This document shows, piece after piece, positions 28,462 through 50,384 of a stretch of DNA of 64,000 nucleotides. The stretch is from Rhodopseudomonas julia. GTDB taxonomy: Bacteria > Pseudomonadota > Alphaproteobacteria > Rhizobiales > Afifellaceae. The DNA is taken from assembly GCF_030813515.1 (NCBI RefSeq), contig NZ_JAUSUK010000001.1, positions 1,860,001-1,924,000 on the forward strand. Direction: 5' to 3'. Position numbers and translations under genes: made by a program. Positions within the stretch are counted from its first letter, which is position 1; the number at the start of each line of letters is the position of its first letter. Below the pieces are notes generated by a model. It searched no databases. It saw nothing but the letters and a program-made list of their open reading frames with translations, and was not told the DNA's origin.

Positions 28462-28512
28462 CCGACCCCGATCGGAGGGCTGAATCCTGCTGCTTGTGTC
28501 GGCTCAGATGAT

Positions 28513-29715
28513 CTACGGCCTGGGCGATGAACAACCCGGCTCGCGCGAGTGCGTTCTCCAAACCTCCCGGGACGCGTCGTCGGTGAGGTGATTGTACCGG
28601 GCGAGGGCCTTATCGAGGGCCTGAGCCATTTGGTCGAGGCCGGTCCCGCTCCAGATTTCGGTGTGGGAGCCAACCACCCGCGCGTGGCTGAGTTTGCCGT
28701 GAATCAGGCTTGTCCAGCCAAAGGCCTGGTCGATGAAGCGGCTTCTCGGCTGATCGTCGCTCCAGATCGCCAGGACGTCGCCCTGATAATCCTGCACGCG
28801 GTGCCTTTCGCCGGCGGCGTCGATCGCCCTGAAGAGCGCGAGGTCATCCGGGTCGAGCGCCTGTTCCGGCTCATTCATCATGCGTCGAACGAGATTGCGT
28901 GTGGAGATCAGGCGCCGCCGCACGGTGTCGCTCCGCCGGTGAAGGTCGCGGAGGCCGGAGAAACCGTTCGGTAGCGCCGCTCTCAGATGAGCTGAGGCGC
29001 GATGCAGGAAGAAGGCCGTTCGCCCAAGCATCGTCCCTCCGCCGGCGCGGTATCCTGGCGCCCAGCCATCGACGACGACGACGAGAGGAATGTTCTCTCC
29101 CGTCTCTTTCATCTGACGTGCGATTTCGAGGGCAAGTCGTCCCGCAAAGCAGAAGCCGATGAGGATATAGGGGCCCCGGGGGCGCGCATCGCGGATCGCC
29201 GTGACGACATGCGCCGCGATCTCCGAATAAGACTGGCAAAGAAGATCGACCTCTTCCGGCATCGGCACCGCGAGAAAGGGCTGGTCGCTGCCGAGCCTTG
29301 CGGCAAGCTCGCGGTAGATAACCGTATCGTGGACGGCGATGATCGGGATGCGGGAGCCTGCGGGTTGGAGGGCAATGGCGCGCGATTGCGGCTGGCTCTT
29401 TGCGGCGATGATTTCGGCAAGCGCGGTGACGGTCGGAGCGCGATAGAAGGTCTCCAGCGGAATGTTGCAGCCATAGAGCCTGCGGATTTGGGCGAGGCAG
29501 CGGTAGGCGGTGAGGGACGAGCCGCCGAGAGCGAAGAAATCGTCGTTCGGGCCGATGTGCGTGACTTGCAGGAGATCTTCCCAGGCCGTCAAAAGAGCCG
29601 AGACGATGGGCGCGTTCCCGCAGGCAGGATCGGACGATCGCGCCGGAGCGTCATCGCTCTGATAAGGCTCTTCCGGTTCAACGAAAGCGCCCTCCGGGAA
29701 GACGTTCTCAGTCAA
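28513..29715 (-). CDS. Stand-alone PCP-thioesterase protein (NRPS-like)
   Basis: A 400-residue protein with two NRPS parts. Residues about 38-105 are a peptidyl carrier domain with FFALGGSSLTAYR, the phosphopantetheine serine being Ser67. Residues about 115-375 are an alpha/beta-hydrolase thioesterase. Its nucleophile elbow is GFCFAG, so the expected serine is Cys189; the probable acid and base are Asp320/Asp321 (SDDQPR) and His351 (GSHTEIW). No condensation domain is present. It lies 42 bases downstream of an adenylation protein, which should load the carrier. The thioesterase would release or transfer the acyl group to water or to an acceptor, possibly a polysaccharide precursor. It needs a PPTase; one is encoded at 42941. 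Confidence 0.85.
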   Translation of the reverse strand: MTENVFPEGAFVEPEEPYQSDDAPARSSDPACGNAPIVSALLTAWEDLLQVTHIGPNDDFFALGGSSLTAYRCLAQIRRLYGCNIPLETFYRAPTVTALAEIIAAKSQPQSRAIALQPAGSRIPIIAVHDTVIYRELAARLGSDQPFLAVPMPEEVDLLCQSYSEIAAHVVTAIRDARPRGPYILIGFCFAGRLALEIARQMKETGENIPLVVVVDGWAPGYRAGGGTMLGRTAFFLHRASAHLRAALPNGFSGLRDLHRRSDTVRRRLISTRNLVRRMMNEPEQALDPDDLALFRAIDAAGERHRVQDYQGDVLAIWSDDQPRSRFIDQAFGWTSLIHGKLSHARVVGSHTEIWSGTGLDQMAQALDKALARYNHLTDDASREVWRTHSREPGCSSPRP

Positions 29716-29757
29716 GGTCGGGCTCCCTGCGATGGTGCCTGGTCGCGCTGTCCTCTC

Positions 29758-31503
29758 TCATGCGGCTTCTTCCCTCGCTGCCCTGTGCTGGGCCGGCGCC
29801 ATGACGGGCTCTCCGCCGTTCTCGCCGCCCGGGTTTCGGGGAGGCTCAAAAAGCGTCGCGAGGAGCGCGGTCCGGTCGAGTTTGCCGTTCCGGTTCACCG
29901 GAAAACGCTCCATCACGTTCAGTCTTGCCGGGACGGCCTCTGGCGACAGGATCTGGCGCAGCCTCGCCATGATCGCCGCCTCGTCGGGCCAAGCCTGCGC
30001 AGGCCGCAGGAAGGCGACGACCTGTTTTTCGCCGGGGCGGATTTCGCGCACCGTCGCGACGGCGTCGGCGACGTTCGGCATTTCCTCCAGGATGGCTTCG
30101 ATCTCGGACAGCTCGACGCGTTTGCCGTTGATCTTCACCTGCAGGTCCGCACGACCGATGAATTCGATGTCTCCGTCGGGATTTCTGAGGACGAGATCCC
30201 CCGTGCGGTAGAGTTTTGCTTCGCTCTCTTCTGCAAAGGGATCGTCGAGGAACGACCTTTCCGTCCGCTCCGGCTCGCCGAAATAGCCGAGCGCCACGCC
30301 GAGACCTCCGGTGTAGAGCTCGCCGATCTCTCCATCCGGGACCGGCTGCATGTTGCTATCCAGAATATGCGTCGTGGTGCCGGGGATCGCCTTGCCGATT
30401 GGCGCCGGAGACGGCATCGGGCCCGTCGGCGGCAAGGCGTAAGCGGTGGTGAAGGTGGTGTTTTCCGTCGGTCCGTAGCAGTTCACGAGATGCGCATGCG
30501 GGAGCAGGCGGCGCGCTTTTTCGGCATGTGCGACGGAGAGAACGTCGCCGCCGGTCAAAATCTGCCGGAGGGGCATCAGATCCTCCGGCACCTCCTCGAT
30601 CAGCAGGTTGAAGAGGCCGGAGGTCAGCCACAGTGTCGTGACGCCATGGCGGCGAACCGCCTCGCCGATATCGAGCGGTGAAGGTCTCGGATTGTCGATG
30701 AAAGCGAGGGCGCCGCCATTGAGAAGGGGCGCCCAGATCTCGAGAGTGGAGGCGTCGAAGGCGAGGGGAGCGAATTGAAGAAAGATCTCGCTCTCGTCCA
30801 TGCGGGCGTACTGGGCGCCTTTCACCAGTCGCACGATGCCTCGATGCGGGACCATCACACCCTTCGGTGCCCCCGTCGAGCCAGAGGTGAACATGATGTA
30901 GGCGAGGTCCTCAGCGCCCGGAGGTGGGCTTTCGAGGCGAGGGTCTGCGGCGGCGATCCGCTCAGCCTCATGCTGCAGGCAGAAGATGTCGCCACTCCAT
31001 TCAGGGATTGCAGGAAGGCGGGCGAGGAGCTCTTCATCGACCAGTGCGAGAGGGGCGTCCAAACGCGCGAAGAGCGCGCCGATCTGTCCGTCGGGCAGGC
31101 TGGGATCGATCGGCACATAGGCGGCGCCGAGCTTCAGAATGGCAAGATAGGCCGCGACGCTGAGCGGCCTCTGGAGAGTGAGCGTCGGGACGAGATCGCC
31201 GCGCCCAACGCGGTGCTGCCGCAGAACCTGGGATATGCGGTTCGACCATTGGTCGAGAGCGAGATAGGTGATCGGACCGGTGTCTGCGAGGAGCGCCGCG
31301 GCGGAGGGGCGCCGGGTAACCTGCTCGGCAAAGCAATTGATAACGGAGTGGGCATTCGCGGGTCCGTCTACCACCCCGTCCGCCGGTCCACCGCGCTCCG
31401 CCGGCTGCCCCACGGGCCGCCCGGCCGCACGCCCCGTCGACGCTCGATTGCTTCCGCCGAACAGAGCTGCAAGCCTGCCGGCACCTCGTCCCGTGAAAGC
31501 CAT
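29758..31503 (-). CDS. Stand-alone NRPS adenylation protein
   Basis: A 581-residue amino-acid-activating enzyme. Core motifs appear in order: FTSGSTGAPKG (205-215), the FDASTLEIW specificity loop (249-257), NCYGPTEN (341-348), YRTGD (432-436), and the C-terminal lysine in NRNGKLDR (Lys541). Asp250 would hold the alpha-amino group of an alpha-amino acid. Hand alignment with the phenylalanine-activating domain of GrsA gives a pocket read of D-A-L-G-L-G-C-T-F-K, which I cannot assign to a substrate. The first 50 residues are Gly/Arg-rich and outside the fold, so the start is uncertain. It stands between an ExoF-like export gene (75 bases upstream) and the PCP-thioesterase gene, apparently in one operon. 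Confidence 0.88.
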   Translation of the reverse strand: MAFTGRGAGRLAALFGGSNRASTGRAAGRPVGQPAERGGPADGVVDGPANAHSVINCFAEQVTRRPSAAALLADTGPITYLALDQWSNRISQVLRQHRVGRGDLVPTLTLQRPLSVAAYLAILKLGAAYVPIDPSLPDGQIGALFARLDAPLALVDEELLARLPAIPEWSGDIFCLQHEAERIAAADPRLESPPPGAEDLAYIMFTSGSTGAPKGVMVPHRGIVRLVKGAQYARMDESEIFLQFAPLAFDASTLEIWAPLLNGGALAFIDNPRPSPLDIGEAVRRHGVTTLWLTSGLFNLLIEEVPEDLMPLRQILTGGDVLSVAHAEKARRLLPHAHLVNCYGPTENTTFTTAYALPPTGPMPSPAPIGKAIPGTTTHILDSNMQPVPDGEIGELYTGGLGVALGYFGEPERTERSFLDDPFAEESEAKLYRTGDLVLRNPDGDIEFIGRADLQVKINGKRVELSEIEAILEEMPNVADAVATVREIRPGEKQVVAFLRPAQAWPDEAAIMARLRQILSPEAVPARLNVMERFPVNRNGKLDRTALLATLFEPPRNPGGENGGEPVMAPAQHRAAREEAA

Positions 31504-31578
31504 TTTGCGGTCCTGTCGTTTAGTCGTGAATGACGCCGATCCGTGGTTGGAAATTCCTGCCGCCGTGCGATGATGCGA

Positions 31579-32817
31579 TCAATTGAGTCGCGTCGTGAAG
31601 AGCTCTCTCGGCAGCTCCAGTTTCACCTCGACGACATCGCCCGGCATCAGCGGTGCGTCTTCGGAGGCGGGCAGGCTCTGTGGCTCACCCTCCGGATCGC
31701 TGCGGTGGATGATGATGTCCGCGGGGGCGTGGCGGCGCACAAGGTCGGACTGCAACAGGCCGGCATAGAGGAGTTTCTGACCTGCCGAGCGCAGTCCCGT
31801 CCGGGTTGTCTCCAGTTCTAGCCGGGCATCTTTCAGAGCTTTGAGCAGGGCGACCTCGCGCTCGGCGTCGAGGGTGTCGTAACGACGGGCGAGAGCGTCG
31901 CGTTCGACGGTTGCCCGCAGCTTTTCGACGGTGGTTTCGAGCTGCTGGCTGCTCGTCAACAAGATGGCACGGCGTGCGTCGCTGATGCGTGTCGATTGGG
32001 CGAGGCCCTTCTTGTCCAGAACCTTCAGATTGTCGAGCTCCGCCCGGGCCGCCGCCAGCTCCGCAGTCTGCATGTCGTCCCGCTCTTCCAAAGTGTCGAT
32101 CTGGCGTTCGGTCTCTTTGAGGGTCTTGGCGAGTTGCTGCCGGTCCAAGGCGTGATCGGAAAGGTCGAGGGAGAGCTGCTTTTTCTCCGTCCGCAGGATC
32201 TGGGAGACGAGCTCAGGGTCGATCGGAACGGCGGGAATGTCATCGTGGCCGATGTCGTCGCGCCCCTGCAGCTCTGCTTCCAGACGCCATACGGTCGCCT
32301 GCTGATGCGCAAAGGCAATCCACAAAGCCGCGTAATCGGTGCGGGCATTCTCCATCTCGATGAAGGGATCGGCCTGGCGCAGCCGTGCCACGTCGTAGCC
32401 GCCGGCAAGCGTCACCGCCTGGCGGACCGACAGGTCGGGTCGATACGTGACTTCGCCCGGCTCACCCACATCGCCATGGACGTAAACGGGGCGGCTCGCG
32501 ACGAGATCGAAAAACACGTCGTCTGCCGTGATCGACACGACCTGCCCATTAGGATTTTGTAGTTTTGGCCGGTAGATTTTTCCAGGTGCAGCGCGCTTCA
32601 GTCGCGCGCGCACCTGCGAAGGCGAAAGCCCCACAACTTTGATATCTCCGAATATTGGAAGTGAAATGACGCCGTCTGCCGCAACCGTGGTGCGGCGTGT
32701 CAGGTCCGGCACCCCGGTGACGGTCATTTCTACCGTATCACCGGTTTGCAGTGGGAGTTCGTCGGCCGCCGATACGCCACTCAGGGAAAGAAAAAGAATG
32801 AGAACAATTAGTTTCAT
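31579..32817 (-). CDS. ExoF/Wza-like polysaccharide export protein
   Basis: About 412 residues from the ATG at 32817, chosen because it gives a clean signal peptide (MKLIVLILFLSLSGVSA); an upstream start at 32871 is possible. The polysaccharide-export domain follows (LQTGDTVEMTVTGVPDLTRRTTVAADGVISLPIFGDIKV), then a SLBB-like segment (VYVHGDVGEPGEVTYRPDLSVRQAVTLAGGY). A long, charged alpha-helical coiled-coil region covers about residues 190-350, and a second export-type motif (PLMPGDVVEVKLELP) is at the end. This is the layout of rhizobial ExoF, which forms the periplasmic/outer-membrane part of the export path. It is divergent from the ExoY-like gene. Confidence 0.88.
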   Translation of the reverse strand: MKLIVLILFLSLSGVSAADELPLQTGDTVEMTVTGVPDLTRRTTVAADGVISLPIFGDIKVVGLSPSQVRARLKRAAPGKIYRPKLQNPNGQVVSITADDVFFDLVASRPVYVHGDVGEPGEVTYRPDLSVRQAVTLAGGYDVARLRQADPFIEMENARTDYAALWIAFAHQQATVWRLEAELQGRDDIGHDDIPAVPIDPELVSQILRTEKKQLSLDLSDHALDRQQLAKTLKETERQIDTLEERDDMQTAELAAARAELDNLKVLDKKGLAQSTRISDARRAILLTSSQQLETTVEKLRATVERDALARRYDTLDAEREVALLKALKDARLELETTRTGLRSAGQKLLYAGLLQSDLVRRHAPADIIIHRSDPEGEPQSLPASEDAPLMPGDVVEVKLELPRELFTTRLN

Positions 32818-32974
32818 TAGCTTTCTCGACGCATTTAAACTTGTGGAGAAAGTGCGGTTCGGCTGACCCATCTCCGTTCCACTCGCTTTTGACTTAACGA
32901 GGATGTTGACAGGAATTCTAACAAATGTCTAACTGAAATTAGGATAATTTTAAACTTTGAGGCTGGTGCTGTCG
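32818..32974. promoter_or_regulatory. Divergent AT-rich promoter region between ExoF- and ExoY-like genes
   Basis: About 157 bases, AT-rich from 32880 to 32955. For the plus strand a TTGACA box at 32906-32911 is followed 17 bases later by CTAACT (32929-32934). The hexamer TCTAAC is repeated at 32917-32922 and 32928-32933, 11 bases apart, so the same face of the helix is presented twice, inside the promoter spacer. Confidence 0.5.
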
Positions 32975-33718
32975 ATGAGCGAGCTTTCGGACTTCGAGTT
33001 TGCCTCGCGTCCCGGCAATGCGTCGGCCAGTCCTGGTGCCATGCAGGATGCCGCAATCCTACCGCGGGGGCGGCCTGCCCTTGTCAGAGTGGAGGCCTGC
33101 GAGATCGATAGCGGCGGGGGCAATGCCCATCTGCTCGCACCCTCCAAGCGGGCGACAGATATCGCTCTGGCGCTCGCGCTGATCGCGCTGTTTTTGCCCC
33201 TCATGGCTCTCATCTATGTCCTCGTCAGGATCACGAGCCGCGGTCCCGTCATCTTTCGTCAGGAGCGAAGCGGCCTCCGGGGGCGGCCCTTTCAGATCTA
33301 CAAGTTCCGCTCGATGTATTTCTCGACCGGGGAGGATTTTCGCCAGGCCGGGCGCAGCGACCGGCGCGTGACTCCGGTCGGGCGGGTCCTGCGCATGACG
33401 AGCGCTGACGAGCTGCCACAGTTTTTCAACGTGCTCTTCGGCGACATGTCGATCGTAGGGCCACGGCCCCATGTCGCGTCACTGGACACGGCGTACGCCT
33501 CGCTCGTTCCAGGCTACCTCGGCCGGTTGCAGGCGCGACCCGGCATTACCGGTCTCGCCCAGATCCGTGGGCAGCGGGGGGAGACGCCAACGGCGGAGGC
33601 GATGCAGGCGCGCGTCAATTCCGACCTCGAATATGTGCGCGACGCCTCGCTCTTCCTCGATGCCCGCATCCTCGTCGTCACCGTCAAACACGTGTTGTTC
33701 AGCAAAGATGCGTATTGA
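32975..33718 (+). CDS. ExoY-like undecaprenyl-phosphate sugar-1-phosphate transferase
   Basis: About 247 residues from the ATG at 32975. One N-terminal membrane helix (IALALALIALFLPLMALIYVLV) precedes the bacterial sugar transferase domain: GPVIFRQERSGLRGRPFQIYKFRSM, then RVTPVGRVLRMTSADELPQF, and the conserved GDMSIVGPRPH. This monotopic enzyme starts repeat-unit assembly by moving hexose-1-phosphate from a UDP-sugar to undecaprenyl phosphate. Lacking the WbaP-type multi-helix N-terminus, it is of the short ExoY kind. The unconserved first 60 residues are typical. It overlaps the ExoP-like gene. Confidence 0.93.
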   Translation: MSELSDFEFASRPGNASASPGAMQDAAILPRGRPALVRVEACEIDSGGGNAHLLAPSKRATDIALALALIALFLPLMALIYVLVRITSRGPVIFRQERSGLRGRPFQIYKFRSMYFSTGEDFRQAGRSDRRVTPVGRVLRMTSADELPQFFNVLFGDMSIVGPRPHVASLDTAYASLVPGYLGRLQARPGITGLAQIRGQRGETPTAEAMQARVNSDLEYVRDASLFLDARILVVTVKHVLFSKDAY

Positions 33719-35648
33719 TCCTCTCTCCATATCGGGGGCCCAGGAGATGCCCGCTCAATCCGTCGAAACCGGTGCCGGCAGCCTTCTGTGGATGCTCGGC
33801 CTTCTCCTCCGGCGCAAATGGGTGGTGGTGCTCGTCGCCGCCGTCGCCTTTGCAGGCATGGCGGCGGTGATCGCGAACCTCACGCCGTCCTACCGCGCCA
33901 CGGCTCTCGTTCTGCTTCCTTCGGTGCCGGTCGATGATCCGCGTACGGCGGAGGAAAAGACCGTCTCGCCCATGCTGCCCTCCTTCATCATTGCGTCGGA
34001 AGCGGCCGTGCTGGGCAGCGAGGAGGTCGCCCGCAGGGTCATTGATACGCTTGATCTTCAGGACGAGCCGAGTTTCACCGAGAATCCTTCCTGGCGCACA
34101 AGGCTGCGGAGCTGGATCCAGCCCTTCTCGGGGAAAAACGAGGTGCGAGCCTCGCCCTGGAGTGTCGACGAGCTTGAGCGTGATCGGCTTTTGCAAATCT
34201 ACATGAAGAAGCTCGCGACCTATAATGACGGGCTGTCGACGGCCGCAATCGTCAGCTTCACCTGGAGCGATCCGCATCTCGCCGCCAAAATCGTCAACGC
34301 CCACGCAGCCACCTATATCGGCATGCAGGTCGAGCGGCGGACGCTCGCGCTTCGGCATGTCGTCGACCTTCTGGCTGCTCAGATGGAGGAGCGGCGATCG
34401 GAGGTCGAAGAAGCAACCCGTGCGCTGTCATCGGCTCAAGCCGCGTCGGGAGGGCTCCCGCCGCTGGCCGATTCGGAGGCAGGTTCGCTGCCGGATCTTC
34501 AAAGCGACCTCGACAATGCCCGGGGTGCCTTGTCGCAGACACAGACGCGGCTGATCGAAGCCACATCGAGATTGCGCGACGGTCAGCTGCAGAGCGCCGA
34601 TTTCGTCGCCGATGATGCCAAGGTCGTGTCGCGGGCCTCTGTGCCGACGCGCCAGATCTTCCCCAAGGTGGCGCTCTTCCTCCTCCTTGCCGCAATCGTT
34701 TCGCTGGCGGCCGGCCTTGCTGGCGCGATGGTGGTCGATCATCTCGCGAGCCGGTGGCGGCGCAATGCCGCTCATATCGAAGGGATCGGTCTTCCGATCT
34801 TGGGTGCGATCTCCCTCAACGTCTCAAGCCGTCTGCCGTCGAACCGGGCGAGCCGTGTCAGGTTCTGGGAAGAGATCCGTTTCGTACGCAACCGCCTGCT
34901 TCATGAGGGAGGCAAACCGACGCGGGTGGTGCTCGTCGTCTCGGCGATGCCGCGGGAAGGAAAGTCCCTTGCCGCGGTCGCTCTCGCACAGAGCTTTGCG
35001 GCGACGGGACGGAGGGTCCTGTTGCTGGATGCCGATCTCCGTCATGCGGCGGGCGAACACGCCGCCTCGCCGTCGGCCGTCAAAATCGGGCTCAGCGATC
35101 TTCTCGGCGCGCCTGGCGGCAAGGGAGGAGCCGGGCTGCGCGATGCGATCATGGCCGTTGAAGATACGTCGCTTCACGTTCTTGCTGCCGGGAGCGCTGC
35201 TGCTGGAAGTGATGGAAAGGCCATCGACGCTCTCGCATCGCCGGTCCTGCCGAAGCTCATCGAGACCCTGCGGCGTGATTATGATGTGATCGTCATCGAC
35301 AGTCCGCCTCTCAATGTCGTCTCGGACGCCACGTCTCTTGCCACCCTTGCCGATCAAACGCTGCTTCTCTGCCATATCGGGCGTTTTTCGCCGGGTGCCC
35401 TTGAGCAGACGATCACGATCTTGCACGCCTGCCGTGCGGAGATCGCCGGCGTCGTGCTGACCGGGAACAGCGTTTTCGCGAAAGAAGGCATTTTGCGCCG
35501 CGGCGCGCCGGTCCCGTGGCGCGCCCAAAAGGGACTTACGAAACTGCGCCCGACGCTCACGGGCGCGTCTCTGGTGAAAGCCTATCCTTCGCCGCAGCCA
35601 GTCGGAGGTGCATCCCTGCCGGAAGCTGCGGCCGCGTCTCCGTCCTAG
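33708..35648 (+). CDS. ExoP/Wzc-like polysaccharide co-polymerase and BY-kinase
   Basis: About 646 residues from the ATG at 33708, overlapping the ExoY-like gene; a start at 33747 is also possible. The Wzz chain-length domain has a first helix at about residues 38-58 and a second after the periplasmic coiled coil (FPKVALFLLLAAIVSLAAGLAGAMVV). The cytoplasmic BY-kinase domain shows SAMPREGKS (412-420, Walker A), RVLLLDADLR (Walker A') and DVIVIDSPPL (Walker B). The tail has no tyrosine cluster, only a single Tyr near the end, so autophosphorylation control may differ from Wzc. It sets polymer length together with the Wzy-like protein downstream. Confidence 0.9.
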   Translation: MRIDPLSISGAQEMPAQSVETGAGSLLWMLGLLLRRKWVVVLVAAVAFAGMAAVIANLTPSYRATALVLLPSVPVDDPRTAEEKTVSPMLPSFIIASEAAVLGSEEVARRVIDTLDLQDEPSFTENPSWRTRLRSWIQPFSGKNEVRASPWSVDELERDRLLQIYMKKLATYNDGLSTAAIVSFTWSDPHLAAKIVNAHAATYIGMQVERRTLALRHVVDLLAAQMEERRSEVEEATRALSSAQAASGGLPPLADSEAGSLPDLQSDLDNARGALSQTQTRLIEATSRLRDGQLQSADFVADDAKVVSRASVPTRQIFPKVALFLLLAAIVSLAAGLAGAMVVDHLASRWRRNAAHIEGIGLPILGAISLNVSSRLPSNRASRVRFWEEIRFVRNRLLHEGGKPTRVVLVVSAMPREGKSLAAVALAQSFAATGRRVLLLDADLRHAAGEHAASPSAVKIGLSDLLGAPGGKGGAGLRDAIMAVEDTSLHVLAAGSAAAGSDGKAIDALASPVLPKLIETLRRDYDVIVIDSPPLNVVSDATSLATLADQTLLLCHIGRFSPGALEQTITILHACRAEIAGVVLTGNSVFAKEGILRRGAPVPWRAQKGLTKLRPTLTGASLVKAYPSPQPVGGASLPEAAAASPS

Positions 35649-35649
35649 A

Positions 35650-37230
35650 ATGAGCGCCGGGGGTCCGGCCGTTCCGCGGCCTGAGAGCCAAGCTGGGCGA
35701 GATTGGGCCTCCAACCGAGGTTCGCCCATCCGACCTGGGCCGGGCCGCGTCGGTCCTGACTCTGACGGGCTTTTCGGCCGAGTGCTGCTGCAGTTCCAGG
35801 TTCTGGCGCTGGTCGGGATCATGGCCGCGCCGGCCTTGACGAGTGCGGCCGGCCATCTCCGGCTTGTTCTTCCTGCCGGTGCCCTGGTCGTTGCCTCTTT
35901 CTTTCTGCTGAGAGGCGATATGAGGCGGTATATCGCCTTCTGCCTCTGGCTCTTCGTTCTCACTCCTTTCATTCGGCGGATGGTCGATTTTCACGCCGGC
36001 TTTCTCGATTACAGCCCGCTTCTTCTCGCCCCTTACGCGGCGCTTGCTCCGGCCTCCGGCGCACTTGTCTTTGCTGTGGCAAATCTCCGTCATCCGATGT
36101 CCGCCGGGCTTCTCCTCGTCGTTGCGGCCGCGGTCTATGGACTCATGCTGTCCGCTCTCAACGGTCAGTTCCTGCCCGGTGCCTACGATTTCCTTCTCTG
36201 GGTCTTGCCGGCGGCATTCGGCATGTTCGTCGCCAGCAACCCATCCTGGGTCCGTCACCTGCGCGGTGATCTTGCCGTCTTCTCGGTTTTCACCGGCATC
36301 CTTCTCGGGCTCTACGCTCTCTATCAGTTCCGCTACATGCCCGGCTGGGATGCCCTTTGGATGAAAAAGACGCTCATGCCGACGATCGGCGAGCCCTATC
36401 CCTATAAGGTTCGCGTCTTCGCCACGATGAACTCGCCAGCCTCCTTGGCCTTGTTCCTGCTGTTGCCACTGTCGATGCTCATCGTCTCAAAAGGCGCCTT
36501 GCGCTGGCTCGCTTTGGCGCTCGGCTTCGTGGCGCTTGGCCTCACGGTGGTGCGGACCGCTTGGGTCGGCATCTTCATCATCGGCGCCTATTGTTTCTTC
36601 CTCGGGTCCGGCCGCGTCAGAACCTCGATGCTTGTGCTCGCCCTCGTGCTCGTGGTGGTGGCACCCATGGCGCTGTTGAGCGACCAAGGGGCGCGGATCG
36701 TCAGCCAGCGGATCGAATCCATGCTCGATGCCCGCGCGGACGTGAGCGCCAACGAGCGGCTCCATGTCTATGCGGCGGCGTTCGAGGAAATGGAGCGGCA
36801 TGTTTTCGGCTCCGGTCTCGGAGGGTCGCGGGCCGATCCCGCCACCAAGAGCGGCGTTCAGGCGATGCAGATCGACAGCGGCCCGATCGCCGCGATGCTG
36901 GCGGTGGGGGTCGTCGGCGCTCTCGTCTATTATGCCGGGATCGGTTTCATCGTAGCTTTTCTCTTCCTCCAGGGAGCCGCGCTGAGGGCGGAGGAGAGGG
37001 CGCTCGTTCTCGCGGCGCAAGCGATCGCCGTGTCCTATCTTGTGATGAGCCTGCTGATCCCTTCCACGGTCGGGGAGCACGGGGTCGTCTTTTGGTTCAT
37101 GCTCGGCATGGGGGTGGCGCAGATCACGGCTTCGCGGGCGCAAATGCGCCTGCCTTCACAGGATCGCGGCTTGCTGGGTGCCGGCGTCGTGGCTGGACCG
37201 GCGGCCGCATCCCTCCCAACTCATCTCTGA
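35650..37230 (+). CDS. ExoQ/Wzy-like polysaccharide polymerase (O-antigen ligase family)
   Basis: A 526-residue polytopic membrane protein with about 12 hydrophobic segments. A large periplasmic loop carries the Wzy_C (O-antigen ligase/polymerase) signature, here around RLHVYAAAFEEMERHVFGSGLGG (about residues 375-397). The gene begins two bases after the stop of the ExoP-like gene, so the ExoY-ExoP-ExoQ genes form one operon. The likely role is joining lipid-linked repeat units into polymer; a ligase role is the alternative. The first 45 residues are polar and unconserved. Confidence 0.85.
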   Translation: MSAGGPAVPRPESQAGRDWASNRGSPIRPGPGRVGPDSDGLFGRVLLQFQVLALVGIMAAPALTSAAGHLRLVLPAGALVVASFFLLRGDMRRYIAFCLWLFVLTPFIRRMVDFHAGFLDYSPLLLAPYAALAPASGALVFAVANLRHPMSAGLLLVVAAAVYGLMLSALNGQFLPGAYDFLLWVLPAAFGMFVASNPSWVRHLRGDLAVFSVFTGILLGLYALYQFRYMPGWDALWMKKTLMPTIGEPYPYKVRVFATMNSPASLALFLLLPLSMLIVSKGALRWLALALGFVALGLTVVRTAWVGIFIIGAYCFFLGSGRVRTSMLVLALVLVVVAPMALLSDQGARIVSQRIESMLDARADVSANERLHVYAAAFEEMERHVFGSGLGGSRADPATKSGVQAMQIDSGPIAAMLAVGVVGALVYYAGIGFIVAFLFLQGAALRAEERALVLAAQAIAVSYLVMSLLIPSTVGEHGVVFWFMLGMGVAQITASRAQMRLPSQDRGLLGAGVVAGPAAASLPTHL

Positions 37231-37281
37231 TTGCCGCTTCGAGGTCTTGGGCGGGGCGTTAGCCTGGATTCTGGCCGACCC

Positions 37282-38733
37282 TCACAGATGAACGAGCCGA
37301 TCGCGGAGATAGCGGAGGTCCCCCAGGGTCAGATAAGGACGCGGCAGCGGCAGCTTCAGGGAGATTTTGATGCCGATGAGAATGAGGGTGAGCCGCAGGA
37401 GCGTGACCGCGAGGATCGCCCAGGCTGCACCAATTGCCCCGTCGCGGGAGGCCATGACGTAGACCGATACCAGCATGGCCCCGAAGCATGTCGCTTCCAC
37501 GGCAGAGACGTAGCCGGGGCGGTTCAGGGCCTGAAAGAGCTGTGCGCTGATATTGGCGAGGCCGAAGACGATCGCCTCCGCAAGAAGCACGTGGAAGATC
37601 GGAACCACGGGCGTGAATTCCTGACCGTAGAGCAGCACCAGCAGCGGAGGTCCCCACCACATGCCTGCGAGCCAGGTGATGAGAAGAAGGGCAAGGGCAA
37701 AGCGAAAGGTATGATCGTAATGCCGTTTCGCAACGTTCGCTTCTGCTCTCGCCATCTTGGAGAGGAGCACGCTGTTGATCGGCATGATCCATGCCATGGC
37801 GATGCGTGAAAAGCTGAAGGCGATCACATAAAAGCCGAGCTCGGCGGGCGCGACGAGACCGATCAGGATCAGGCGGTCGGTATATTCTGCGCATGTCGTG
37901 ACGATGTCGGCGGGGCCGGCGCGCAGGCTGTAGGAGAGCATCGCGCGTGCGTGGCGTCGAAAATCGCCTCGTGGGACGCCCATGCGGCTCAAGAAGAAAG
38001 GAATCTGCGTGACGAGCGCAAGGCTGATCCCCGCAATCGACGCCAAGACGGCGCTTTGCCAATTCAGGTCGGCGAGGGCCAGCACCCCCATCAGCGCGAT
38101 GAAATAGAGAAGATTGGGGGCGAGACGGCCGTAATTGTTGAAGGTGAAGGCGCCCAATCCGATGAGAACGCAGCAAAGGAGGGCCTGCGAGCCGCCGAAA
38201 ATGGAGGCTAGCGCTGCGATGCGCGCGTAGAGGATCGCCTGCGGGTCATACTGCGTCATCAAGTGGGGGATCGCGACGAGCGCGATCGTGAGAACGAAGC
38301 TGCCCCAACCGGCCGCCAGCACGAAAGCGATTTGGGCGATTCTTGCCCGGTCCTCACGGTTTTTGGCTACATGATAGGTGGCCGCAGCGCCAATGCCCGC
38401 CGTTGCGATCAGAGCGAGGAACTGCGTCCACAGCACGACCGCGGAATAGATGCCGCGACCGTCCGGACCGAGCAGCCGTGCGGTGATGACGCCGGTGACG
38501 ATATTGACGATGAGGATGGCTGCAAAGGTCGCCATCGACTGCATGACGGCATAGATGGCGGTCGGCGCCCACAGAATGCGGCCCGGCAGGTGCAGGAGGC
38601 TCGCTAAGAGAATGCTCCGCATGGATGGCGCGGCCGGGGCGGCACTGACCTCGACGGCCGCGACATTGACCGCCGCGACATCGGCTTTCACCTGATCGGC
38701 TCTTACAACCACAGGGCCGGCTTCCGGGTGCAT
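37282..38733 (-). CDS. Wzx-like polysaccharide flippase (MOP/MVF superfamily)
   Basis: A 483-residue membrane protein with 12-14 helices, resembling oligosaccharide flippases of the polysaccharide_synt family (for example VNIVTGVITARLLGPDGRGIYSAVVLWTQFLAL near residue 95). It would turn lipid-linked repeat units across the inner membrane for the Wzy-like polymerase. The N-terminal 65 residues are an Ala/Val-rich cytoplasmic lead. Its start region overlaps the end of the upstream glycosyltransferase gene by 31 bases, and it converges on the polymerase gene. Confidence 0.88.
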   Translation of the reverse strand: MHPEAGPVVVRADQVKADVAAVNVAAVEVSAAPAAPSMRSILLASLLHLPGRILWAPTAIYAVMQSMATFAAILIVNIVTGVITARLLGPDGRGIYSAVVLWTQFLALIATAGIGAAATYHVAKNREDRARIAQIAFVLAAGWGSFVLTIALVAIPHLMTQYDPQAILYARIAALASIFGGSQALLCCVLIGLGAFTFNNYGRLAPNLLYFIALMGVLALADLNWQSAVLASIAGISLALVTQIPFFLSRMGVPRGDFRRHARAMLSYSLRAGPADIVTTCAEYTDRLILIGLVAPAELGFYVIAFSFSRIAMAWIMPINSVLLSKMARAEANVAKRHYDHTFRFALALLLITWLAGMWWGPPLLVLLYGQEFTPVVPIFHVLLAEAIVFGLANISAQLFQALNRPGYVSAVEATCFGAMLVSVYVMASRDGAIGAAWAILAVTLLRLTLILIGIKISLKLPLPRPYLTLGDLRYLRDRLVHL

Positions 38734-40034
38734 TCACGCCCATCTCGATTTGCGGTGCCGGGACTGCCTTCAGCCAATGCCGGGTTCGCGTGCGGGGACG
38801 CCGGGCGAGGGCGAGAGACCCCCTCAGGGTGCCAGCGTCGTCCCTGAACCATCTCTTCGCATGCGAGCCTCATCCTCTGGTCGCCGAGCACGCCCTCGTA
38901 AATCCCGGCAATCCGTGCCCGGAAGACGTCCGGCGAGAACTTTTTCCGGGCGGCGCGAATGAGAAACGATGCCGGCAGACGCTCTTGCTGTCTGATGGTC
39001 GTAAGCACGGCCGCGGCCACGGCGTCCGCATCGTTCCTCGGAACAAGGATGCCTCCAGTCTCCGTGCAGACGGCTTCACGGACGCCCCCGATATCGGTGG
39101 CGACCACAGGCCTGCCCACGATCTGCGCTTCCGCAAGGACCATGCCGAAGGATTCATTGCTCGATGAGGTCAACGCCACGACGTCCATCCCGGCCATCCA
39201 AGATGGCATGTCGGTCTGGAAGCCGGTGAAGCTCACGCGGCCACGCAACGCGGGGGTCTCGGCCATATCACGGAGGCGCCTCGCGTAGTCTTCCTTGTCT
39301 TTGAGCGCGAGCGGGCCGACGATCCAGAAATGCGTGCCGGGCTCTTCTGCGGCGATCCTCTCGGCCGCCTGCAGGAAAATATGTTGGGCCTTCCGCGGCT
39401 CGATGACGCCAAAGATGCCGATATTGTAGGGCGCGCCTTTTGCGACGATCGGCGCGGCCGGGCGCGCTTTGGCTGCCTTTTCGATGAATTCCGGATCGAC
39501 GCCGTTCGGGACGATCTCGACCCTTTCGCGGGAAACGCCGATCGTATCGAGGAGTTCGCGGCTTGCGCCGGAGACACAGATGAAGCGGTCCACATGACGA
39601 GCGGTCCAGCGGAGGGCGAGCCGGTGCTGGGGTTTGATCGGCAGCACTTCGTGCACATGCATGACCACCGGAATGCCGAGGCGACGAGCGGACGGGAGCG
39701 CATAGAGCGCGCCGACCGGGTGGTGAACGTGAACGAGCTTGATCTCACCCGAGGTGAGGAGCCTGCCGATCTGGGCGCTGCCGGCGCGCCAGGCCTGAAA
39801 GTAGTGCACAAGCGCAAGAGGATCTGACGTGGCGCGCATCCGCTCGAAGCCGCAATCCGTCACCGGGATGGAAAGCGAATGGGCTGCCGCCGAAAGATCA
39901 CCTCCTCCGGGGCAGGCGAGGATAGGGGAATAGCCGTAATCCTCCATGCCGCGCGCGAGCGTCAGGATCACCCGCTCGGCACCGCCGAGGAAGCCGACGC
40001 GGCTCACATGGAGAACGGCGCGCTCTGCGGACAT
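38703..40034 (-). CDS. GT4-family glycosyltransferase
   Basis: A 443-residue GT-B glycosyltransferase. The N-terminus has VSRVGFLGGAERVILTLARGM, the middle IKLVHVHHPVGA and VEIVPNGVDPEF. The C-terminal donor-site motif is SNESFGMVLAEAQIVGRPVVAT (E-x7-E), typical of GT4 retaining enzymes. The start at 40034 (MSAERAVLHVSRV) is preferred over 40097 because the fold begins there. The last 45 residues are Pro/Arg-rich and unconserved. It probably adds one sugar of the repeat unit, and is coupled to the flippase gene. Confidence 0.88.
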   Translation of the reverse strand: MSAERAVLHVSRVGFLGGAERVILTLARGMEDYGYSPILACPGGGDLSAAAHSLSIPVTDCGFERMRATSDPLALVHYFQAWRAGSAQIGRLLTSGEIKLVHVHHPVGALYALPSARRLGIPVVMHVHEVLPIKPQHRLALRWTARHVDRFICVSGASRELLDTIGVSRERVEIVPNGVDPEFIEKAAKARPAAPIVAKGAPYNIGIFGVIEPRKAQHIFLQAAERIAAEEPGTHFWIVGPLALKDKEDYARRLRDMAETPALRGRVSFTGFQTDMPSWMAGMDVVALTSSSNESFGMVLAEAQIVGRPVVATDIGGVREAVCTETGGILVPRNDADAVAAAVLTTIRQQERLPASFLIRAARKKFSPDVFRARIAGIYEGVLGDQRMRLACEEMVQGRRWHPEGVSRPRPASPHANPALAEGSPGTANRDGRECTRKPALWL

Positions 40035-40124
40035 GCTGTCACCCCCGTCTTCAAGCTTTGCCACGCTGGCGCGAGCCCGCGTCGAGCCTCTGCTCAAAAC
40101 GGCGCGCCATTGGCTAAGTTTTTA

Positions 40125-40346
40125 GATGAAGAGGGAATATTGTTGGCGCAGTCAATATATAATGCTAATTAATTTATAATTATGCTAATTCACGGCTGCC
40201 TCGACTGCTGCTTCGAGGAAAGCCATCGCCCTGAGAGCGGAGGCGCCTCGAGAGCTGAGGCTGAGGCGTACCGGCGATGGTGACCGGCCATCGGACCCCT
40301 TCAACGACGGGGGCCAGGATACGCGACTTTCGAGTCTGGAGGGGGA
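40125..40346. promoter_or_regulatory. Divergent AT-rich region between two glycosyltransferase genes
   Basis: About 220 bases. The block 40128-40195 is very AT-rich and holds the direct repeat ATGCTAATT at 40163-40171 and 40183-40191, exactly 20 bases (two helical turns) apart. This suggests cooperative binding of a regulator between the divergent genes. The remainder is GC-rich and shows no gene. Confidence 0.5.
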
Positions 40347-41546
40347 ATGAAGGTTGCTCTGATCCACGAAGCGCTGACCGTCTATGGTGGTGCCGAGAAG
40401 GTGCTCGAGGAGCTGATGCGGATGTTCCCGGAGGCTCCGGTCTTCGTTCCGCTTTACGAACCGTCAGCGTTTCCCGAGGCGTTCCAACGCGCCGATATTC
40501 GCGCGACCTGGATCAACCGGCTCCCTCTGGTGCGCTCCCATCACCGCGCGCTCTTTCCTCTCTACCCACTCCTGATGAGCTCGATCGACCTTTCCGGCTA
40601 CGACCTTGTCATCAGCAGCTCCTTCAACTTCGCACACAATGTGGTCACGCCGCCGGAGAGCTGTCATGTGTGCTATTGCCATTCTCCGCCCCGCTTTCTC
40701 TGGGATTACAACGCTTATGCCCGGCGAGAGGGCTTTGGCGTGGGGAAAAGGCGGGTGGTGGAATCCATGCTGCCGCGGCTTCGCTCCATGGACCGCGCTG
40801 CGGCGCAGGGCGTCGATTTCTGGGTCAGCACGAGCACGCTGGTGGAGCAGCGAATCCGGAAGACCTACCGCCGTCGCAGTACGATCATCCCCCCGCCCGT
40901 CGACGTGAACGAGTTTAAGCCGGGAAGTGGCCGCGGCGAGTATTTTCTCCTGCTGATGCGTCTCGTCGGCTGGAAGCGACCCGATATTGCGGTCAGAGCC
41001 TGCAGCGAACTCGGGTTGAGACTCGTCGTGGCCGGCGAGGGCCGGGAGATGCGACACCTCAAAGCCCTCGCGGGGCCGAGCGTTGAATTCGTCGGGCGCG
41101 TGGATGGGGAGGCAAAGGCCGAGCTCTACCGCAATTGCAAAGCCCTGATCCTGACGTCGGTCGAGGATTTCGGCATTACACCGCTTGAGGCGATGGCTTC
41201 TGGGCGCCCTGTTATCGCTTTGGGTGAGGGAGGCGCTCTCGACACGGTGGTTCCCGGGGAGACTGGCGAGCTGTTTGAAGAACAGACGTGTGAGAGCCTC
41301 AAACGCGCACTCCTGCACTTCAATCCGGATCTCTACGATTTTGCGGCCATTCGTCGGCGCGCAGAACATTTCGACAGCGGTCAGTTTCGGGCAAGGCTGA
41401 ACAGTTTTCTCACGCGCTCTGTCAGGCTCTACTCGCGGAGGATGAGCGAAACTGCTTCCGATGAGCTAGACCTTGGGGGAGCGGCCGACGCGAGTGCTCC
41501 GGAACGGCAAGCGGAGCCTCGGTTTCCAGCGCATATGCACTCTTAA
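40347..41546 (+). CDS. GT4-family glycosyltransferase
   Basis: A 399-residue GT-B glycosyltransferase. It starts MKVALIHEALTVYGGAEKVLEEL, with an acceptor-site loop YCHSPPRFLWDYN that is common in mannosyl- or GlcNAc-transferase-like GT4 proteins of polysaccharide loci. STIIPPPVDVNEF precedes the C-terminal donor domain, with EDFGITPLEAMASGRPVIALG carrying the E-x7-E motif. The start at 40347 has GAGGGGGA ahead of it. It is transcribed alone, divergent from the first glycosyltransferase. Sugar specificity is unknown. Confidence 0.9.
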   Translation: MKVALIHEALTVYGGAEKVLEELMRMFPEAPVFVPLYEPSAFPEAFQRADIRATWINRLPLVRSHHRALFPLYPLLMSSIDLSGYDLVISSSFNFAHNVVTPPESCHVCYCHSPPRFLWDYNAYARREGFGVGKRRVVESMLPRLRSMDRAAAQGVDFWVSTSTLVEQRIRKTYRRRSTIIPPPVDVNEFKPGSGRGEYFLLLMRLVGWKRPDIAVRACSELGLRLVVAGEGREMRHLKALAGPSVEFVGRVDGEAKAELYRNCKALILTSVEDFGITPLEAMASGRPVIALGEGGALDTVVPGETGELFEEQTCESLKRALLHFNPDLYDFAAIRRRAEHFDSGQFRARLNSFLTRSVRLYSRRMSETASDELDLGGAADASAPERQAEPRFPAHMHS

Positions 41547-41716
41547 AATTTGTATACCGTCAGGTGTTCGATAGTCGTAATTTTCGGCTGCACAAGGAAA
41601 CCGGAAAGTTCCCTTAGCAAATAGGTCGTATTTTAATCCATTTTGCAATCCATCTTGTTATGTCTATAAATTCTCCATATAATTTTGGAAGGTCATTGCT
41701 TGTAGGTGAGGGGTTT

Positions 41717-41935
41717 ATGCCGTGTCGCAACATTTCCAATGGCGAAAGCTGCGAGCAATGCCGGTTCTGGGCGCGTCAAGGCAACAAATTTGCCGGTGAG
41801 TGCCGGCGTTATCCGCCGCATTATGCCGAAGGGGCGCATGGGCGTCCGCTGGAATTGAAACGGGTCTACCCCATGGTGCCTCCGACGGATTGGTGCGGAG
41901 AATTCAGGCCGAGGGTGGCGGAACTGCTTGACTGA
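41717..41935 (+). CDS. Small cysteine-rich protein, possible metal-binding domain
   Basis: A 72-residue protein starting at ATG 41717 behind GTGAGGGG. Its cysteines fall in a fixed pattern: MPC (Cys3), ESCEQCRFW (Cys12 and Cys15), GECRRYPP (Cys28) and DWCGEF (Cys57). The combination of a CxxCRFW pair, CRRYPP and a final DWCGEFRP recalls a short family of uncharacterised bacterial proteins, and the spacing suggests a single metal or iron-sulfur site. No partner gene is obvious. An AT-rich leader (41545-41716) precedes it. Confidence 0.65.
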   Translation: MPCRNISNGESCEQCRFWARQGNKFAGECRRYPPHYAEGAHGRPLELKRVYPMVPPTDWCGEFRPRVAELLD

Positions 41936-42035
41936 CGTGCCGCGTGTAGTCCGGACTTCGGCGACGACACGTCAAGGCAGGCTCGCTGGTCCCGCTGTGG
42001 GCGGCGGAGCGCTTAGAGGATGGCGCGGAGGGGAG

Positions 42036-42380
42036 TTAAGGGCGCCGATCGTTTTCCCAGATCGTGTGGATGCGATGCGCACTTGGTGTTGATATCTGAA
42101 ACAGCCTCGCCACTTCGATCTGTTTCATGCCTCGATCGAAGGCGGCATATACCGCAGTTTTGCCGAGGCGCGTCAGCCGGTCCCCCTTTTTCCAGGCGGG
42201 GTTGAACGCGCTGAGGTCGACAGGATGAGCCTGCTCGCCCGGGCGAAGCTTCGCGATGACTTCGTCGAGCGCGGCGGCAGCGGCGAGACAATAATCGCGC
42301 TGCGCTTGCAGGTATCTGATTTTCGCCTCCGGCGAGAGGTCCTCGTATTCAGGCCTCTCCAGGAACGGCCGCATCATCAT
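42036..42380 (-). CDS. Small protein with C-terminal helix-turn-helix, unknown function
   Basis: A 114-residue basic protein. The N-terminal half is helical (LSPEAKIRYLQAQRDYCLAAAAALDEVIAKL). The C-terminal part, GMKQIEVARLFQISTPSAHRIHTIW, reads as a helix-turn-helix like those of resolvase/homeodomain-type DNA-binding segments. It may be a small regulator within the polysaccharide locus. The start MMMRPFLERPEYEDL is chosen for the best open frame; there are three adjacent Met codons. No family recognised. Confidence 0.55.
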   Translation of the reverse strand: MMMRPFLERPEYEDLSPEAKIRYLQAQRDYCLAAAAALDEVIAKLRPGEQAHPVDLSAFNPAWKKGDRLTRLGKTAVYAAFDRGMKQIEVARLFQISTPSAHRIHTIWENDRRP

Positions 42381-42599
42381 GTTCGAAAATCTCCCTCCGG
42401 AGTTGTGATCGGATACGCCAGGTGGCCTGCCGGTCGTCCCGAATCGTCGAGCTGCAGCCTAAATCTTGTTCATGGGCGAGTGAATTTCTAGGGCGATAGG
42501 ATAAAATTGAGACCTCTACTGATACATTTTGTTGACTTTTTCTATTTTCTCGATGTGATGCAACCTTAAGGAATCCGCGACCCCTAACGTCTCGGACCG

Positions 42600-42941
42600 A
42601 TGCCGCGGCAGATTGAGGGTGTCGAGGACATGTTGGCGTATAGGGGCCTCTTCCTTGTCTGTGCCGCCGTTGGGTGCTGGTTGGCCTTGTATTGGGTCGC
42701 CGCCTGTGCGTCATCAGCCGAAAGCGGCACCTGTCGAGCTCCGGATTCGAGGTGGATGGCGGCTCCGTCCGAGTTCGCTCAGCCGCTCCTTTCTTTTCTC
42801 TATCCGGGTTGCGTGCGGCATGCCGGCGTCATCGTGCTGCAGAGTGCGGTCGATCGGATTGCTCTCATGCGGGGCGAGGCAGAGATCCTTCTCGCCAGGG
42901 ATGCAGGTGTGCGTGGAGTTCTGCAGCGCCGAAGTGGGTGA
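42600..42941 (+). CDS. Possible small hypothetical protein preceding the PPTase gene
   Basis: A 113-codon open frame from ATG 42600 whose TGA overlaps the PPTase start by one base (TGATG), as in translationally coupled pairs. The product has one hydrophobic N-terminal segment (GLFLVCAAVGCWLALYWVAA) ending in a cysteine that could be a lipobox (WVAAC). The rest resembles no known protein and has poor composition. It may be only a leader frame. An AT-rich stretch (42480-42560) lies upstream and probably holds the promoter for this unit. Confidence 0.3.
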   Translation: MPRQIEGVEDMLAYRGLFLVCAAVGCWLALYWVAACASSAESGTCRAPDSRWMAAPSEFAQPLLSFLYPGCVRHAGVIVLQSAVDRIALMRGEAEILLARDAGVRGVLQRRSG

Positions 42942-43663
42942 TGTCGGTGTGCCCTCCGCTGGCCGCAGACGAGATCCACATCTGGACCTGGCGCCTCGAC
43001 GACGATCTGCTCAAGGCGTGCGATGCCGACTGGCTCACCCACGAGGAGAGATCCCGCTGGGCGGGGCTGCGCACGCCTTCCGCGCAGATCCGGTTTGCGG
43101 CCGCCCGCAATGGTCTCCGGTTTCTGCTTGCCCAATATCTTGGCAGGGAGCCTTCAGAGATCGTTCTGACGGAGGGGCGGTTCGGGAAGCCCTGTCTTGG
43201 CGCTGAAGCTGACCTCGCGTTCAATCTCTCTCATGCCCGGGACGTGGCTGCGTTTGCAATCTGTCGTGGGGGTGCGGTCGGGATTGATATCGAGGCGGAG
43301 GCGGCAGGGCATATCGATCTCTATGGAATCCTCTCTGCGGAAGAGGAGCGGCGCCTCCACCAGCTCGGCGTGGCGGTCGACCGTTCCACGCTGCTGCAAA
43401 TTTGGATTTGGAAGGAGGCGGTGTTGAAAGCCTGCGGCCTCGGCCTGTCGCGCAATCCGAGCACGCTCATTCTTGATTTCGAGCGACCTGACGGGCGGCT
43501 CGTGGCGCGAAGCGGCGCTGTGCCGGGCCTCGGCTCCTATGCACTTCAGGGGTTTCAGCCCGCGCCGGGTTTTGTTGGGGCGGTCGCATCACTGCGGGAA
43601 GGTTGGCGAATGCTCTCTTTTTCGCTTTGTCCCGAACACTTGAACAGGGCTCGCCGGATGTGA
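42941..43663 (+). CDS. Sfp-type 4'-phosphopantetheinyl transferase
   Basis: A 240-residue PPTase. The conserved parts are FGKPCL (81-86), the LAFNLSHARDVAAFAI segment, the magnesium site GIDIE (114-118) and WIWKEAVLKACGLGL (155-169). Length and two-lobed layout fit the Sfp/EntD group, which activates carrier domains of secondary metabolism by moving phosphopantetheine from CoA to a serine. The only visible client in the window is the carrier domain of the PCP-thioesterase protein 13 kb away, which makes this gene part of the same functional set. The start ATG 42941 is chosen because the fold begins within ten residues. Confidence 0.9.
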   Translation: MSVCPPLAADEIHIWTWRLDDDLLKACDADWLTHEERSRWAGLRTPSAQIRFAAARNGLRFLLAQYLGREPSEIVLTEGRFGKPCLGAEADLAFNLSHARDVAAFAICRGGAVGIDIEAEAAGHIDLYGILSAEEERRLHQLGVAVDRSTLLQIWIWKEAVLKACGLGLSRNPSTLILDFERPDGRLVARSGAVPGLGSYALQGFQPAPGFVGAVASLREGWRMLSFSLCPEHLNRARRM

Positions 43664-44519: not shown

Positions 44520-44562
44520 CTAGTGCTTGACCTCTGTCAGATGAAAGTCAATCATAGCTAAA

Positions 44563-44588: not shown

Positions 44589-44604
44589 AACAGGAAACGG
44601 TTTA

Positions 44605-49576: not shown

Positions 49577-49589
49577 GGAGACGGTAGCG

Positions 49590-50366: not shown

Positions 50367-50384
50367 TATTTGGAGAAGGATCGA

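Follow-up and report, generated by a model that had tools for sequence, protein, structure and literature searches.

A split single-module NRPS in an Afifella exopolysaccharide locus and its likely service to the polymer

Results

An adenylation protein and a carrier-thioesterase protein are encoded inside a Wzx/Wzy-type exopolysaccharide locus

We analysed a 64,000-nucleotide stretch of Rhodopseudomonas julia DNA (positions 1,860,001 to 1,924,000 of contig NZ_JAUSUK010000001.1, assembly GCF_030813515.1), called the window below, from a 3.79-Mb genome that belongs to Afifella. Positions 26773-43663 of the window hold an exopolysaccharide (EPS) locus of the Wzx/Wzy type, and within it lie the parts of one nonribosomal peptide synthetase (NRPS) module divided between a stand-alone adenylation (A) protein and a peptidyl carrier protein (PCP) fused to a thioesterase (TE), together with a 4'-phosphopantetheinyl transferase (PPTase). 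These parts and the export gene that leads them are as follows (lengths in amino acids, aa):

31579..32871, minus strand: ExoF/Wza-type outer-membrane export protein, first gene of the run (PF02563, Poly_export, 56.7 bits)
29758..31503, minus strand: stand-alone NRPS adenylation protein, 581 aa (PF00501, 263 bits, plus AMP-binding_C; TIGR01733, 385 bits)
28513..29715, minus strand: PCP-thioesterase protein, 400 aa, TTG start (PF00550, 52.7 bits; PF00975, 59.5 bits)
42941..43663, plus strand: Sfp-type 4'-phosphopantetheinyl transferase (PF01648, 32.6 bits; HetI model, 71 bits, below cut-off)

The first-pass annotation of this DNA had placed the A and PCP-TE genes downstream of the ExoF-like gene on the same strand, with gaps of 75 and 42 bases, and had put the Sfp-type PPTase at the far end of the polysaccharide locus; coordinates, gaps and PPTase all proved correct. 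The corresponding gaps are 66 and 42 bases in two other Afifella genomes, and the identical 42-base gap and TTG start of PCP-TE in all three genomes rule out a sequencing error as the source of the A/PCP-TE split. The ExoF/Wza protein, in which an SLBB match fell under the cut-off, probably starts at 32817, which would give 412 aa as in its relatives in L031 and L033. The PPTase open reading frame (ORF; 42674-43663, plus strand) matched the ACPS superfamily and yields a 240-aa protein from the ATG at 42941; because it is a separate plus-strand gene, it lies outside the ExoF-A-PCP-TE transcript. The gene arrangement is real and well supported.

Assembly genes complete the locus. With Pfam, which we ran on 30 ORFs of the window, an initiating sugar transferase, Wzx, Wzy, Wzc and an outer-membrane polysaccharide export (OPX) protein were all present, the last being the ExoF/Wza protein above:

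32957..33718, plus strand: ExoY/WcaJ-type undecaprenyl-phosphate sugar transferase, initiator of the repeat unit (PF02397, 203 bits; TIGR03023, 288 bits, below cut-off)
33471..35648, plus strand: Wzc/ExoP-type co-polymerase and kinase (PF02706, PF13614)
35608..37230, plus strand: Wzy polymerase (PF04932, 44.9 bits), with a homolog that adjoins the NRPS of genome G231
37282..38733, minus strand: Wzx flippase (PF13440, PF01943)
38703..40097, minus strand: GT4 glycosyltransferase (PF13692, PF13439)
40347..41546, plus strand: GT4 glycosyltransferase (PF00534)

Scans of the whole genome (99.06% complete) recovered two ACPS superfamily proteins, namely the locus PPTase and AcpS (TIGR00516 above cut-off), two PP-binding proteins, namely the locus PCP and AcpP (TIGR00517 above cut-off), and 11 AMP-binding proteins including the locus A protein. 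The locus thus holds the sole non-housekeeping carrier and the sole Sfp-type PPTase found by these scans and, since the other carrier is AcpP and the other ACPS match is AcpS, the PPTase has one obvious client. No condensation (C) domain matched anywhere in the genome, which extends the first-pass observation that the locus has none and makes a peptide bond impossible by the usual route.

The A code fits an amino acid and the thioesterase nucleophile is Cys

The A protein scored 384.9 bits with the NRPS amino-acid adenylation model TIGR01733 (cut-off 317.4) and has D250 and K541. It fell far under the cut-off of the DltA model (210 bits versus 559.85) and failed that of the XrtA/PEP-CTERM EPS-associated ligase model TIGR03098 (208.9 bits versus 592.35), whose members are likewise AMP-forming and which by name is tied to the exosortase A system. 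We placed the ten substrate-code positions by GrsA numbering, taking D250 to be GrsA 235, and read DALWLGCTFK in the window protein and DAFWLGCTFK in the two Afifella orthologs, a difference at the third place only. The Afifella code comes nearest to that of Val, DAFWIGGTFK. The first A domain of an NRPS/polyketide synthase (PKS) line in genome G671, 43% identical to the Afifella A protein, has DAFWLGGTFK, a close neighbour of the Val code that is also found in one A domain of Allorhizobium ampelinum; two A domains of Aliiroseovarius have DALWLGGTFK, and the starter A domains of Loktanella and Rhodobacter have other codes. The Asp for the alpha-amino group (D250) is kept in the Afifella protein, which probably activates one alpha-amino acid, with Val or a similar aliphatic one as the likely choice, although Cys replaces Gly at position 322.

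PCP-TE combines a carrier domain that has its phosphopantetheine serine (S67) with a releasing domain of triad C189-D216-H351, both above their Pfam cut-offs. All four residues were invariant in an alignment of the three Afifella proteins and five EPS-linked relatives. Among 40 relatives from searches of the order and class, the TE nucleophile was Cys in 12 (two of them Afifella) and Ser in 28; a Cys thioester suits transfer, we infer, better than hydrolysis. AB3403 (PDB 4zxh) and the PCP-TE of SulM (8w2d), which are among the best solved relatives at 23% and 17% identity by structural alignment, are parts of longer NRPS proteins, unlike the Afifella PCP-TE; AB3403 also has Cys in its nucleophile motif, as the Afifella TE does. 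The predicted model of PCP-TE reached a pLDDT of 67.7 and its fold search did no more than confirm an NRPS-type TE, and we draw no argument from it.

CmaE and SyrC are enzymes with a Cys nucleophile. They are named, and LgnA was studied, as enzymes that move aminoacyl groups between carriers (PMC8748450). The role that we propose for the Afifella TE resembles theirs in being a transfer of aminoacyl groups rather than hydrolysis. The three enzymes are free-standing, take another carrier protein as acceptor and, in the case of LgnA, use Ser, whereas the Afifella TE is fused and uses Cys.

The module is under purifying selection and has relatives in a rearranged locus of the family

Across the three Afifella genomes, the A gene has a dN/dS of 0.18-0.25, the PCP-TE gene 0.20-0.28 and the PPTase gene 0.25-0.35, as against 0.03-0.04 for the neighbouring UbiD gene and 0.08-0.10 for ExoF. 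Purifying selection on the A, PCP-TE and PPTase genes is therefore clear, yet looser than on UbiD and ExoF.

PCP-TE, the Wzy family and the PPTase co-occurred in the same four of 11 family genomes, the three Afifella and G231. The EPS locus of G231 is rearranged (ManC, PPTase, C-A-PCP-TE, A-PCP, Wzy, GT4, Wzc, Wzx, ExoF) and has a two-module NRPS, and it is more telling than the pattern within the genus. A contig profile search with the PCP-TE alignment returned only Afifella marina and one short match of 33% in Paenibacillus, not enough to survey gene order.

The closest relatives are longer NRPS/PKS lines beside EPS genes

In genome G671, an assembly line of three proteins, A-PCP, ketosynthase (KS)-acyltransferase (AT)-aminotransferase-C-A-PCP and C-A-PCP-TE, adjoins genes for ExoY, Wzy, GT2, Wzz, OPX, Wzx and a WecG-type transferase. 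Beside a flippase and other polysaccharide genes, such a line is also present on plasmids of Rhodobacter sp. CZR27, Loktanella salsilacus and Aliiroseovarius sp. M344, two of which have a PPTase visible near it; domain scans covered the lines of G671, Rhodobacter and Aliiroseovarius, and the first protein of that of Loktanella. Further EPS-adjoining lines were seen in G206, G121 and G1043, and by marker scan in G198 and G150. Of nine plasmid neighbourhoods, chosen by the author, three were EPS loci with a line (H3, H6, H80), two had some polysaccharide genes (H15, H26), three were counted as having none (H25, H28, H41) and one was unannotated (H30). The first-pass annotation had made its proposal depend on the three genes accompanying polysaccharide loci in other genomes, and related genes were found in such a setting in the two other Afifella genomes, in G231 and, as longer lines, in several alphaproteobacterial families.

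Proteins of the KS-AT-aminotransferase-C-A-PCP type lie in the EPS loci L089:351-10346, L156:12309-22598 and L082:5959-13806 and, by similarity, at L099:2328-11006; those of L082 and L089 have Gly-like A codes. Their predicted product would be an amino acid plus a malonate unit, aminated and joined to a further amino acid.

Descent ties both Afifella proteins to this group. The TE tree, of 49 domains, groups the Afifella TE with the G121 group (support 100/99) inside a clade of 11 rows (96/91), all with Cys; 10 of these rows are labelled EPS-linked and the remaining one is on a cut contig. This clade includes the TEs of G671, Rhodobacter, Loktanella, G206 and the G121 group, not that of Aliiroseovarius, and the G231 TE branches immediately outside (95/79). 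The A tree, of 28 domains, puts the Afifella A protein in an eight-row clade (99/99) drawn entirely from EPS loci. Besides the three Afifella proteins, this clade comprises the starter A domains of G671, Loktanella and Rhodobacter and the two A domains of Aliiroseovarius; the Gly-type A domains of EPS-linked lines stood apart from it. Tree rows were sampled by similarity and by the author's choice of plasmid records, with the G206 A domains not included, so that the trees speak to kinship, not frequency.

The EPS-linked lines resemble the Afifella locus in having EPS assembly genes nearby and often a PPTase, and differ in extending a starter through KS-AT-aminotransferase-C-A-PCP and C-(A)-PCP-TE proteins, where Afifella has a single split module; none of these extension modules (KS-AT-aminotransferase, C-A-PCP) was found among the scanned window ORFs. 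Because the Afifella A protein groups with starter A domains, and its TE with the terminal TEs of EPS-linked lines, the pair looks like a longer line collapsed to its first A and last PCP-TE, whose parts may stem from different lines.

Cys-type thioesterases are found near EPS genes more often than Ser-type ones

We called a TE EPS-linked when at least two of five EPS markers lay within about 20 kb, a rule applied alike to both TE classes with marker profiles that were partly built from the tested loci (window, G028, G231, G671, two plasmids, three others) and may favour them. The phylum search listed 36 places, five of them already in the set, and added 24, in 19 of which the TE residue was readable. 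EPS linkage by sample was as follows, with Fisher tests on rows that are not independent:

Order and class relatives: Cys-TE 6 of 12 (two Afifella), Ser-TE 2 of 28 (one-sided p=0.0048)
Phylum sample: Cys-TE 4 of 6, Ser-TE 2 of 13
Pooled: Cys-TE 10 of 18, Ser-TE 4 of 41 (p=0.00036)
One row per genus, table compiled by hand: Cys-TE 6 of 12, Ser-TE 3 of 24 (p=0.022)

Flanks were unequal and some contigs short; using all fetched flanks raised the Cys-type count in the first set to 8 of 12, a figure with no equal extension for Ser. The Cys-type rows of that set still without EPS markers were G128 and G403 (cut contigs) and two pairs in G261. G1032, one of five phylum-sample places whose TE residue was unreadable, had three EPS markers.

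A locus of G1000 (L184:3328-19891) encodes OPX and Wzc, then a PP-binding-sulfotransferase fusion, a Cys-type thioesterase, an Sfp-type PPTase and a second sulfotransferase, and G848 and G976 have loci resembling it; in G1000 and G976 the opposite strand encodes PKS proteins, and these are genomes of about 2 Mb and 40% GC from another class. No A protein was found in the G848/G1000/G976 locus, which we do not claim as the same system; its rows are included in the pooled table.

Discussion

We interpret the Afifella locus as a one-amino-acid NRPS device serving the exopolysaccharide, in which the amino acid is transferred to the repeat unit or its precursor, and we put the probability of this reading slightly above even, at roughly 0.52. 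The PPTase (42941-43663) would convert the PCP to its holo form, a pairing suggested by its being the sole Sfp-type enzyme found by the scans, beside the sole non-housekeeping carrier. The A protein, judging by its intact motifs and code, would activate one alpha-amino acid and load the PCP in trans, from which the amino acid would pass to Cys189 of the fused TE, where the thioester would keep the group activated. In the cytoplasm, the TE would then hand the amino acid to a sugar amino or hydroxyl group of the undecaprenyl-linked repeat or of a nucleotide-sugar precursor, after which Wzx would flip the modified repeat and Wzy would polymerise it. No MBOAT, AT3 or LPLAT protein matched among the 30 scanned ORFs, and for this reason we prefer transfer in the cytoplasm before Wzx, by the TE itself, over a periplasmic step.

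Polymer aminoacylation, which the first-pass annotation had proposed, would be a likely function. That proposal gains from the sole special carrier and PPTase, the co-occurrence in four of 11 family genomes and the EPS-linked relatives, while polymer and sugar as acceptor are reached by reasoning. The wider suggestion, that the Cys-TE clade is a glycan-tailoring transferase family, we hold more tentatively and a little short of even odds: lines of variable length in alphaproteobacterial Wzx/Wzy loci, several of them plasmid-borne, would pass an amino acid, a peptide or an aminated peptide-polyketide to a lipid-linked repeat.

Several observations weigh against these interpretations. The polymer acceptor and transfer by the TE are what we infer, and the scanned ORFs of the Afifella locus showed no gene for amino-sugar synthesis, which means that an amide acceptor would need another source. 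The two genomes of the genus that lack the locus also lack the flanking UbiD, and because that absence covers one block, the phylogenetic profile within the genus is weak. Distant Wzy homologs in six other genomes had no A, PCP-TE or PPTase homologs in the stretches read around them, two of which end at contig ends. In pairwise alignments, the acid and His columns of the G206 TE read N and A, and the His column of the Loktanella TE reads S, so the triad may be incomplete in both. The eight-row A clade does not include the starter A domains of G231 and G121. Ser-type TEs lie near EPS genes in Aliiroseovarius, G196, G878, G253 and G117, which shows that Cys is not required. The two G261 pairs (L039:8166-10658 and L040:7947-10429) are split A and PCP-TE genes of the Cys type with unusual A codes, away from EPS markers, and in Allorhizobium ampelinum S4 the A homolog with a Val-like code belongs to an NRPS with EPS genes absent from the stretch shown. 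A strict rule that an EPS setting means a Cys-TE was dropped because Ser-type TEs adjoin EPS genes too.

Among other explanations, a small diffusible product (an aminoacyl amide or ester, a dimer or an aminoacyl-adenylate signal) might regulate or accompany the EPS outside the polymer. Though unlikely, it is the most probable of the rivals: free peptides could be made by the larger EPS-linked lines, which terminate in release domains, and there is a precedent in that adenylate-forming enzymes including AlmE and DltA can yield a quorum-sensing product from alanyl-AMP, with altered biofilm in almE mutants (PMC12930378). However, the Pfam matches of the Afifella EPS locus included no obvious exporter, receptor or resistance gene for a small product, few kinds of product can be made without a C domain, and co-regulation would have to account for the recurrent association with EPS assembly and export genes.

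Alternatively, as in the Dlt system, the last step could be periplasmic, with the TE giving the amino acid to a further carrier or a membrane step on its way to the polymer or a lipid. The Dlt model does set the last step outside the cell (PMC3783018), and the shuttling of aminoacyl groups between carriers by thioesterase-like enzymes (PMC8748450) supplies a precedent, but the genome scans found no further carrier except AcpP, and the membrane acyltransferase families MBOAT and AT3 had no match among the 30 scanned ORFs, which makes this route improbable. It is more improbable still that the module is what is left of a longer assembly line in decay, now functionless: the pair does resemble the first and last parts of longer lines with the middle gone, but A and PCP-TE have dN/dS values of 0.18-0.28 across three genomes, the active-site residues, the gap and the start codon are kept, and so is the PPTase. 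The A-T-TE furanone and quinone synthetases of the atromentin and ralfuranone type share the domain list A, T (carrier) and TE without C, yet an A protein that activates a keto or aryl acid for a TE that joins two is scarcely credible and was rejected on the A code, since atromentin-type synthetases lack Asp at GrsA position 235 and use a keto acid, whereas D250 and the whole Afifella code fit an amino acid.

Transfer to the exopolysaccharide, the reading we favour, would place the locus beside two described systems. In the Dlt system (DltA-DltC-DltB-DltD), as proposed for Afifella, an adenylation enzyme and a carrier put one amino acid on a surface polymer; Afifella differs in that its carrier is fused to a TE, it has its own Sfp-type PPTase and the genes lie in a Gram-negative EPS locus, and neither DltB (MBOAT) nor DltD had a match among the scanned ORFs. 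In AlmEFG, an A enzyme, a carrier and a transferase put glycine on the lipid A of Vibrio cholerae (PMC3783018, PMC12930378), the same A enzyme-carrier-transferase logic on a Gram-negative surface glycan. AlmG is an LPLAT-type acyltransferase with another acceptor, whereas the candidate transferase in Afifella is an NRPS TE with a Cys nucleophile, and it is by transferase type that we set the two apart. The Afifella system would thus share Dlt/Alm-like logic while, on its sequence, belonging to neither. The likeness to D-alanylation drawn in the first-pass annotation is reasonable given these precedents, but the lack of an MBOAT or AT3 match among the scanned ORFs makes cytoplasmic transfer by the TE seem more likely than a Dlt-type final step.

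It had also stated that it knew of no described system with this arrangement, and the literature agrees so far as covered: there was none among the matches listed in the open literature, and those matches also held no description of NRPS parts in EPS, capsule or Wzx/Wzy loci, with most subscription papers outside this scope. The locus would be a variant of known aminoacylation logic, built from NRPS parts in an EPS setting. The Afifella pair appears to be the minimal representative of a broader set of EPS-linked NRPS/PKS lines, and that set is the more interesting part. If the reading is true, NRPS/PKS chemistry diversifies bacterial surface polymers in addition to making free metabolites, such loci are misannotated by genome-mining tools as clusters for unknown metabolites, and amino-acid or peptide side groups on polymers could be predicted from sequence. 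Being small, the Afifella module lends itself to reconstitution, and its minimal form makes the principle of a TE as aminoacyl-glycan transferase testable with three purified proteins.

Neighbouring genes

One further gene of the EPS locus converges with the ExoF-A-PCP-TE run:

26773..28461, plus strand: 562-aa protein, with no Pfam match even at an E value of 5

It is 88-90% identical in the two other Afifella genomes (dN/dS 0.14-0.18), and its predicted model is of low confidence (pLDDT 32.6). Motifs read by eye suggest that it may be a secreted glycoside hydrolase, which could cut the polymer. The protein merits attention because a Wzy-type EPS cluster of Sphingomonas is reported to contain glycosyl hydrolases, along with an acyltransferase that polymer formation requires (PMC11340318).

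The 1.1-kb gap upstream of the PPTase contains two small ORFs (41660-41935, plus strand, and 42036-42380, minus strand); by eye, one of the two is Cys-rich and one helix-turn-helix-like. Beyond the PPTase, positions 43677-51996 encode an IclR regulator, UbiD, a D-glutamate cyclase-like protein, an arylmalonate decarboxylase-like protein, an aminotransferase, ABC transporter parts with an NMT1-type binding protein and a UbiX-type flavoprotein, which together look like a catabolic operon.

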